Source of the DNA: Deltaproteobacteria bacterium RBG_16_49_23
Lineage (GTDB): Bacteria; Desulfobacterota; BSN033; UBA1163
Assembly (NCBI GenBank): GCA_001798855.1
Contig: MGQQ01000054.1
Span: forward strand, 1 to 32,149
DNA length: 32,149 nt
Direction: 5' to 3'
Shown: in pieces, positions 11,992-30,742 of the stretch
Layout of the letters: the number at the start of each line of letters is the position of its first letter
How positions within the stretch are numbered: the stretch's first letter is position 1
The notes under the pieces: generated by a model
Seen by the model: only the letters and a program-made list of their open reading frames with translations
Told to the model about the DNA's origin: nothing
Database searches by the model: none
Translations under genes and position numbers: made by a program

Positions 11992-12084
11992 CTTATTGAA
12001 TTTCAGATCTGTGTAATCGGTTCCCAATCGATGTAATCAGAGATTTCTGGACTTTTTTAGAAATCTCATGAAATACTCTTGACA
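11992..12084 (+). repeat. Dispersed hairpin repeat with embedded TTGACA (copy R1)
   Basis: ATCTGTGTAATCGGTTCCCAATCGATGTAATCAGAGATTTCTGG...AGAAATCTC-11 nt-TTGACA; homologous to 30590-30685. Confidence 0.8.
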
Positions 12085-12115
12085 AATATATTTATTTATA
12101 TTAAATAATTACTAT

Positions 12116-12168
12116 CTCGGTTGGTTTTGTACCAAAACGAGTTACCCAAAATGGTAACTCTTTTTTTT
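12116..12168 (+). terminator. Overlapping hairpins with Rho-independent terminator (leader/attenuator or small RNA)
   Basis: Hairpin 1 CTCG-g-TTGGT/ACCAA-aa-CGAG; hairpin 2 GAGTTACC-caaaat-GGTAACTC followed by 8 T. Confidence 0.75.
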
Positions 12169-12250
12169 GGGTTTTGCGAGGGAATAGAAAATCCTCTTTA
12201 TTTTCAATACGTTTTAAAAATCAATCCATAATGAAAGGGGGTAGATCGAC

Positions 12251-13628: not shown

Positions 13629-14147
13629 CTAAGATAGGATTTTGATACGGTTTTCTAATTCTTCAATTCGATTTTGAAGGAGGATAGATCTTTGCTTTAA
13701 ATCCGCCACCTCCTTTTCAAGACGCTCTTTAAGATTACTCTCTTTATCTAATTTGCCGTCGATTCCATTGAGGCGGTTATCAACTCCATCGAGTTGTTCC
13801 TCAATTCTCTGGATCGAAAAAGTGATGGTGTGGTATTCTGTCTCAAGCCGGTCCAGTCGATGATAGATTTGATCGAAATGGGTCAAGAGATCATCAAATC
13901 TTTTGTCATGTTCTTCAAGTTTTTTCTCAATTTTATCGAAATGGGGTTCAATTCTATTCAGGATATACGATTCGATTCGGTCAAACCGGGGTTCGATCTG
14001 GCTTTGGATATACGATTCGATTCGGTCAAACCGGGGTTCGATCTGGCTTTGGATATACGATTCGATTCGGTTGAACCCAGGTTCGATCGTTTTCTTATTA
14101 AATTCCTCAAGGGCATCAGTCAGGTCTTTTTTGGAAATAGGCTCCAT
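13629..14147 (-). CDS. Coiled-coil protein with 15-aa repeats
   Basis: 172 aa; IESYIQSQIEPRFDR repeated; heptad-rich remainder. Confidence 0.6.
   Translation of the reverse strand: MEPISKKDLTDALEEFNKKTIEPGFNRIESYIQSQIEPRFDRIESYIQSQIEPRFDRIESYILNRIEPHFDKIEKKLEEHDKRFDDLLTHFDQIYHRLDRLETEYHTITFSIQRIEEQLDGVDNRLNGIDGKLDKESNLKERLEKEVADLKQRSILLQNRIEELENRIKILS
13961..14095. repeat. 45-bp tandem repeat, about 3 copies
   Basis: GGATATACGATTCGATTCGGTCAAACCGGGGTTCGATCTGGCTTT x2 identical, third copy diverged. Confidence 0.9.
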
Positions 14148-14282: not shown

Positions 14283-14357
<75 letters not shown>

Positions 14358-18388: not shown

Positions 18389-18482
18389 GGTAACACTTTA
18401 GCTGTTTGAAAAAAGGCTTTATAAAATCCCTCCCCACCTCCCTTTGCCAAAGGGAGGGGGAAAATTCCCTCTTTGAAGAAGG
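18389..18482. repeat. Truncated MITE-like element (left terminal repeat only)
   Basis: GTAACACTTTAGCTGTTTGAAAAAAGGCTTTATAAAATCCCTCCCC matches the element at 2861. Confidence 0.6.
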
Positions 18483-20970: not shown

Positions 20971-21174
20971 ACATTTCTCCTATGATATTAATGGGTCCAT
21001 AATTGAGAAGACATCTTTAAACTGCTTCGACAAATCCCCATCCCCCTCCTAACCTCCCCCTTGAAGGGGGAGGAACAGAACAGTTTCCCTCCCTTTCAGG
21101 GGGAGGGGAAGGGTGGGGGTGGGGTTCAGCAGATGTCCATACAATTATAGATTGAATAGGAAATACCCTGGTCT

Positions 21175-24073: not shown

Positions 24074-24102
24074 ATTATAAGTCCCTCTCCCAAAAAAATC
24101 AA
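24074..24102 (-). promoter_or_regulatory. Sigma70-type promoter for the coiled-coil lipoprotein
   Basis: Minus strand TTGATT - 17 nt - TATAAT. Confidence 0.5.
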
Positions 24103-24117
24103 ATAGTATTTAACAAG

Positions 24118-24197
24118 GAGATTTCTGAAAAAGTCCAGAAATCTCTGATGGCACCGATTAGGGACCGATTACACAGATTAGAAATCCATTGATAAAT
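24118..24197 (-). repeat. Dispersed hairpin repeat (copy R2, minus orientation)
   Basis: Reverse complement reads TTTATCAATGGATTTCTAATCTGTGTAATCGGTCCCTAATCGGTGCCATCAGAGATTTCTGGACTTTTTCAGAAATCTC. Confidence 0.8.
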
Positions 24198-24199
24198 AA

Positions 24200-24287
24200 A
24201 GAAAAATCTGTGGAATCTTTTTTTAAAATCTGTGTAATCAGAGAGCGTAAAGTAGTTTTTCAGAGCTCTCACAAGGAATCCTTGACA
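24200..24287 (+). repeat. Diverged dispersed hairpin repeat with TTGACA (copy R2b)
   Basis: AATCTGTGGAATC...AAAATCTGTGTAATCAGAGAGC...GAGCTCTC-11 nt-TTGACA. Confidence 0.65.
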
Positions 24288-24362
24288 ATCTGATTCCATT
24301 TTTAATAGACTCAAAACTGCGTTAAGAGAAGGAGAGGATATCAGACAGGCGGGCATGCAACG

Positions 24363-24665
24363 ATGAAGGCGACCTCCCGGGAGAAAGAGAAAGTCGTTGT
24401 GACCGTATCGGCGACCGGTTCATTCGGGGACCGGAGGACTCCCGGGCTTCCCATCACTCCGGAGGAGATTGCGGAGAGCGCCCTGGAGTCGTGCGAAGCA
24501 GGGGCAGCGATCGCTCATATCCACGTTCGCGATATCGAAACCGGAAAACCCTCCATGGATTTTAAGCTCTATGAATTGGTGGAAAAAGCGGTGGCCATTA
24601 TAAGGATTTTGGGGAAAGAACCTGCAACCCCGGATGAAGCAAGGGACTTATTGGGGCTCCGGTGA
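24363..24665 (+). pseudogene. Internally deleted beta-keto acid cleavage enzyme (BKACE/DUF849)
   Basis: N-terminal BKACE motif (VTVSATGSFGDRRTPGLPITPEEIAESALESCEAGAAIAHIHVRDIETGKPSMD) joined directly to a BKACE C-terminus (ELVEKAVAIIRILGKEPATPDEARDLLGLR). Confidence 0.75.
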
Positions 24666-30468: not shown

Positions 30469-30589
30469 TAATAATCCTTCAGTTATGGTTGTTTTTATCC
30501 CCATTTGGCAAAGAGGGATATAGGGGGATTTTAAAATAATGCTTGTAAAATCTCCCCTCGCCCCTCTTTGCCAAAGAGGGGGATAATCA

Positions 30590-30685
30590 TTTATCAATGC
30601 ATTTCTAATCTATGTAATCGGATCCTAATCGGTGTAATCAGAGATTTCTGGATTTTTCCGGAAATCTCATTGAAACTTCTTGACA
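30590..30685 (+). repeat. Dispersed hairpin repeat with embedded TTGACA (copy R3)
   Basis: TTTATCAATGCATTTCTAATCTATGTAATCGGATCCTAATCGGTGTAATCAGAGATTTCTGGATTTTTCCGGAAATCTC-11 nt-TTGACA; 12-bp stem, TTTT loop. Confidence 0.85.
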
Positions 30686-30742
30686 TGAATGGCAATTTAT
30701 TGATATGGATGAACATCCAATCCATAGAAAAGGAGGGTAAGA

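Follow-up and report, generated by a model that had tools for sequence, protein, structure and literature searches.

A hairpin repeat that stands at one constant distance from a promoter box raises the question of which came first. Does the repeat bring the promoter with it, or does it settle beside a promoter that is already there? The question is posed by contig MGQQ01000054.1 of Deltaproteobacteria bacterium RBG_16_49_23, analyzed over a stretch of 32,149 nucleotides (the window). Here, at three places on the plus strand (12079, 24282, and 30680), TTGACA begins exactly 11 nt beyond the outer edge of a hairpin, and the sequences are found where the initial annotation put them. That annotation proposed a mobile promoter/leader module. 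Comparison of the copies with one another and with their empty counterparts in related genomes replaces it with an element that probably inserts at a set position ahead of promoters already present.

The repeat is a gene-free mobile DNA element, a MITE some 152 bp long whose terminal inverted repeats, each about 40 bp, are imperfect. The complete element in the window runs from A end to B end on the plus strand (24118-24270) and is delimited by its alignment to 17 other copies from the same genome, by a sharp peak in length (a mate lies at 150-159 bp for 224 of the 366 ends in all genomes), and by its folding, which is much better than that of shuffled sequences (z -4.96). Both terminal inverted repeats are hairpins, of two types: hairpin A (GAGATTTCTGAAAAAGTCCAGAAATCTC, plus strand, 24118-24145), defined by its sequence and stem statistics, and hairpin B (GAGAGCGTAAAGTAGTTTTTCAGAGCTCTC, plus strand, 24241-24270), defined by its sequence and the alignment of copies. 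Between them, according to the same alignment, lies a core (plus strand, 24146-24240) of paired GATTACACAGATT-type units, inverted, on either side of an A/T-rich center. Set in a single orientation, all copies have one layout: hairpin A, two GATTACAC-GATT units, the A/T-rich center, two inverted units, and hairpin B. This architecture was seen in 18 copies of the genome. The paired 13-bp units between the ends look like protein-binding sites, a putative role.

The properties expected of a MITE are present. The element is short (about 152 bp in most copies), has no coding capacity, and has defined ends, which form imperfect inverted repeats (GAGATTTCTGAAAAA...TCTCTGATTACACCGATT versus GAGAGCTCTGAAAAA...TCTCTGATTACACAGATT), with GAGAnnTCTGAAAAA..TCTCTGATTACACnGATT common to the A and B ends in inverted orientation. 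The boundaries of both hairpins are sharp, and four internally deleted copies (L016, L052, L028, and L050) retain both ends. End positions were taken from global alignment of 44-45-nt consensus sequences of the ends in this genome, and indels may shift the offsets given below by one.

Seen in this way, some of the units initially proposed dissolve. What was counted as a fourth, inverted copy (24118-24197) makes up, together with 24200-24287, the two ends of the single element at 24118-24270. The GAGAGC/GCTCTC stem, read as a diverged hairpin whose pairing had been kept, is the distinct terminal hairpin B, with a consensus of its own in many copies. The notion of compensatory changes in a diverged hairpin was accordingly rejected: pairing across copies of hairpin A is only slightly above that of shuffles (967 versus 943, of 1110), and across copies of hairpin B there is no excess over shuffles. 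The RNAalifold consensus of the copies is a long-range palindrome, in which one pair has changed on both sides. The copies at 11992 and 30590 are real, though as truncated A halves rather than full repeat units; both lie on the minus strand (11992-12067, with hairpin A at 12040-12067, and 30590-30668, with hairpin A at 30641-30668). A terminator scan found no intrinsic terminator inside the element, and a scan of the window with Rfam 15 gave no family above its gathering score for the element, the sole match being a tRNA at 14283-14354. The core sequence does not occur as text in the papers searched.

The element is common in its genome. Searching the 3.83-Mb assembly with 24118-24287 yields about 40 separate places (71 BLAST pieces at E<=10), and querying with the copy at 11992 yields 37; genome-wide counts rest on such similarity searches together with the loci retrieved. 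Most of the other members of the genus that were tested carry it, as do most members of a neighboring genus, while two genus members (G004 and G008) do not. Most of the genomes compared are draft MAGs, with fragmented assemblies. Copies turn up also in MAG contigs titled Stahlbacteria, WOR-3, and Omnitrophota, possibly through mis-binning, and four loci on such contigs (L091, L095, L096, and L109) have the same promoter geometry. In distant families of the phylum, the same core is found with other terminal hairpins or none. Eight such relatives (L073, L087, L280-L283, L285, and L286) have only the GATTACACAGATT core in common, their tips being different or absent; core and tips thus act like interchangeable modules. 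Duplications (ACTAA and ATTAA) can be made out by eye in distant-family relatives with different terminal hairpins. No match to the element was found in viral contigs by pattern search or in plasmids by similarity search.

The manner of insertion can be read from the flanks. The sequence ACAAG stands on both sides of the complete element (24113-24117 and 24271-24275). In 34 of 95 non-redundant elements, the 5-bp target-site duplication is perfect, as against 1.1 with shuffled partners, and in the same set no comparable excess is seen for duplications of 4, 6, 8, or 9 bp. The duplicated target is A/T-rich. A duplication of constant length, again as expected of a MITE, is evident too from an empty site upstream of a gene resembling mgtE. 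In G006, this site reads AAAACACTTTTCGTTTGACA (in a longer reading, AAAACACTTTTCGTTTGACACCC) with one ACACT; in the genome studied here, it reads AAAACACT[element]ACACTTAGCGTTTGACA (longer right flank, ACACTTAGCGTTTGACACCC) with two.

Empty sites of this kind also tell to whom the promoter belongs. The mgtE site is occupied at the same place in G003 and empty in the other members of the genus, which keep the promoter unchanged or nearly so. Upstream of a Fur-family gene, the element or its remnants are found in four species and are absent from four genus members and one other, and all have a promoter of the TTGACAA...ATGATAA type, with or without the element. The three boxes in the window, all on the plus strand, can be viewed in the same way. 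The box of the TAXI-type gene (30680-30685, 11 nt from an A end and followed by a -10-like TATGGA at 30704-30709) faces a half element found also in G003; G006 and G002, lacking the element, keep AAACTTCTTGACAT, and in G004 the box is TTGACT. Upstream of the PxxKW gene (box at 12079-12084, 11 nt from an A end, with a -10-like TAAATA at 12102-12107), the orthologous site holds the same half element in G003 and a decayed one in G006; in G004 no element is recognizable there, and the promoter is conserved. The third box, that of the BKACE/Tct promoter (24282-24287), lies outside the complete element, 11 nt from its B end, and is followed after an 18-nt spacer by a candidate -10 box, TAGACT (24306-24311). 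On the A side of this element is a candidate divergent host promoter on the minus strand (TTGATT, 17 nt, TATAAT; 24074-24102). Because the promoters persist in relatives that lack the element, the -35 box belongs to the host; it and the 11 nt lie outside the element and are present in relatives that do not have it. Thus the initial annotation was right to see a mobile repeat with terminal hairpins, upstream of genes and at a constant 11 nt from -35 boxes, and wrong to credit it with a -35 box of its own: there are empty sites, and the 5-bp duplication ends before the box. From constant spacing to a -35 box, it seems wise to remember, one should not conclude that the promoter is part of the repeat.

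The spacing itself is anything but random. After ends were deduplicated at 62% identity over 50 nt of flank, 225 remained (121 A and 104 B). In 40 of them TTGACA starts at offset 11, where a background of about 0.1-0.3 per position would be expected; ten more have it at offset 10 and four at offset 12 (54 for offsets 10-12). Only 71 of the 225 have any TTGACA within 40 nt outside (offsets 0-40), and if these were spread uniformly over the 41 positions, the binomial probability of finding at least 40 at one chosen place would be about 2e-45. Both types of end contribute (25 A and 15 B), and the reversed motif gives no peak at the ends. Of these sites, 85% have a -10-like hexamer at offset 33-35, 17 nt after TTGACA, compared with 10-28% in control windows; where a TTGAC box is missing from the flank of an end, -10 sequences are weakly enriched at that offset at best. 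The 11 intervening nucleotides are A/T-rich and differ in each copy, the sole recurring feature being a frequent C just before TTGACA. Nine deduplicated ends in the genome of origin are at 11, and two more (L193 and L208) can be added by eye. The genes downstream of occupied promoters are unrelated (mgtE, Fur-like, tRNA-Met, cytidylate-kinase-like, and CopG-like, all but the tRNA named by inspecting the sequence), so no regulon is visible. Between the TTGACA and an aminotransferase-like gene at one locus (L041) lies a structured leader, possibly a riboswitch or attenuator.

Only a minority of ends face a -35 box: about 70% are more than 40 nt from TTGACA. Because of this, either promoters are not the only targets or a preference for A/T combined with purifying selection shapes part of the pattern. 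Many of the ends away from promoters adjoin the stop codon of an upstream gene or a Shine-Dalgarno sequence. For 24 of 110 long inward frames, the stop lies within 5 nt outside the element; some inward frames run into the element and terminate at a stop inside it. Shine-Dalgarno sequences are found 2-9 nt beyond some ends, too broad a spread to sustain the idea of a fixed spacing to them, which was rejected. Both kinds of site may reflect an A/T-rich target together with purifying selection.

What could place an element so precisely? Probably it is a non-autonomous DDE-type transposon (a MITE) whose insertion is directed to promoters, the place being chosen by the transposase itself. The transposase would act in trans. 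In promoter regions the point of insertion, as the statistics of the ends and the empty sites show, is fixed: the outer edge lies 10-12 nt, usually 11, upstream of TTGACA, which puts the staggered cut at about -46 to -42 of a sigma70 promoter that was already there, and the element may face this promoter with either of its ends. Perfect duplications are found at 11-nt sites, the spacing is sharp in several lineages, and the downstream genes are unrelated, and on these grounds we infer that the transposase sets the geometry. It might do so by contacting RNA polymerase or the region of the -35 box and UP element, or it might recognize in the -35 box an incomplete version of its own end. A landing site of this sort would spare both promoter and gene, and after insertion copies would decay, often to a single end.

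The second of these routes leads to a more tentative suggestion. In the ends of the element (C/T)TGAAA occurs 7 nt in from the tip, and in the target TTGACA follows the duplicated bases at a distance of 6 nt. Perhaps the transposase seeks promoters yet belongs to none of the known p-MULT groups, being set apart by its 5-bp duplication and 11-nt spacing and possibly reading the -35 box as a partial inverted repeat of its own, although we would sooner bet against this than for it. If true, it would be a second, independent solution to the problem of promoter targeting in bacteria, shared between phyla.

One might instead suppose that selection for function, not the transposase, accounts for the spacing. 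By this account, insertion is loose within A/T-rich intergenic DNA, and only copies with an end hairpin at one phase upstream of a -35 box have been retained, because a protein bound to the end (with the center of the palindrome near -60), or bending of the DNA, aids transcription. The palindrome is indeed centered about 25 nt ahead of TTGACA, from where class I activators can act. In addition, a few ends are found at 21 nt, more distant by one helical turn, elements or hairpins on the promoter side persist at orthologous sites in several species, and the pairing of hairpin A is slightly better than in shuffles. The perfect target duplications at 11-nt sites, however, argue that the geometry arose at insertion. 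Moreover, there is no regulon to be served, the promoters of relatives work without the element, as far as conservation shows, and either end serves equally despite its different sequence. Selection is on balance an unlikely source of the spacing.

Far less likely still, the repeats could be REP-like palindromes spread by a RAYT enzyme (of the IS200/IS605 Y1 type), with TTGAC as its cleavage site. Terminal hairpins and a TTGAC motif at a fixed distance recall the right ends of IS200/IS605 elements, and, like REP palindromes, the repeats are dispersed, extragenic hairpins, often in inverted pairs. IS200/IS605 elements, however, insert without target duplication. The 5-bp duplications here are clear and, like the defined inverted-repeat ends, would not be expected of Y1 transposition, and the TTGAC motif is outside the element, part of a promoter with a -10 box. 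Last, the idea that the repeat brings its own -35 box to new genes, drawn from the constant distance at the three plus-strand places, is refuted by the same promoter at empty orthologous sites, by the position of the box outside the target duplication, and by the difference in each copy of the intervening 11 nt.

Insertion directed by the transposase, the favored reading, has known counterparts. Transposons of the TnGBS/ISLre2 (p-MULT 3) and ISKra4 (p-MULT 4) groups insert upstream of sigmaA promoters, 15-17 bp (overall 13-17 bp) from the -35 box, produce 8-9-bp duplications, and take both orientations when their ends are symmetrical (Guerillot et al., PMC3942029). To judge from its sequence, our element works like them: it inserts in the manner of DDE transposons, duplicating its target at a set distance ahead of vegetative promoters (40 of the 71 nearby TTGACA boxes at exactly 11 nt, with a -10 box), its ends are nearly symmetrical and used in both orientations, and its inverted repeat has C/G as the terminal base, as in those groups (PMC3942029). 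It departs from them in two defining numbers, a distance of 11 nt (range 10-12) rather than 13-17 and typically 15-17 bp, and a direct repeat of 5 rather than 8-9 bp. The gap between duplication and -35 box comes to about 7 in the p-MULT elements, a value derived from the numbers in PMC3942029, and to 6 here. Also, they encode a transposase, whereas this element encodes nothing. Among bacterial MITEs, Chunjie of Geobacter uraniireducens, the Correia elements, MITEAba12, and BrickBuilt, as described in the passages of PMC10969869 searched, are likewise short and gene-free, with inverted repeats, target duplications, tens of intergenic copies, and decayed partial ones. The same passages report internal promoter sequences for the last three, whereas the promoter here is outside the element and older than it, and they name no MITE with promoter targeting at a fixed distance.

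No bacterial transposons that aim at promoters, other than Mutator-like ones, were found in the literature searched. When a transposon aims at a set position ahead of promoters, gene and promoter alike are left intact. The present one is a gene-free element with a different length of duplication and a different spacing, spread across a genus and MAGs of other phyla. With tens of natural insertion sites, complete with empty-site controls, it becomes testable whether the transposase attends to RNA polymerase or reads the sequence of the -35 box.

A partner encoding such a transposase was sought in several ways. In the genome itself, a pattern search with the terminal inverted repeats found no pair that encloses an ORF. 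None of the matches to DDE_Tnp_1 (PF01609) and rve (PF00665) in five genomes has the element's ends. With the ISKra4 model of NCBIfam, no match in twelve genomes fits, the sole element with identifiable ends (L303, in a relative) having unrelated ends and a 9-bp duplication. The two Pfam families, the one NCBIfam family, and the repeat pattern thus yielded no autonomous partner with the same ends in these fragmented assemblies.

The window holds other features worth recording. Downstream of the complete element, the BKACE gene (24363-24662) is a fragment of 100 amino acids, its main match covering only positions 1-62 of a profile of 274. The leader of the PxxKW/DUF6811 gene (12079-12250) consists of the promoter, then a strongly conserved CTCGGTTGGTTTTGTACCAAAACGAG, then GAGTTACCCAAAATGGTAACTC with T8. 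It is without an Rfam match, and its folding z is only -1.9. Nearly identical in members of the genus and similar in layout in another family, it resembles an attenuator or a short terminated RNA. A second family of dispersed palindromic repeats, of the CCTCCCTTTGCCAAAGGGAGG type and unrelated to the element, occurs at 2893-2926, 18424-18457, 21040-21073, and 30490-30589, with one inverted pair directly adjoining the copy at 30590. Finally, an ORF at 13629-14147 contains three tandem copies of a 45-bp repeat (13927-14088).
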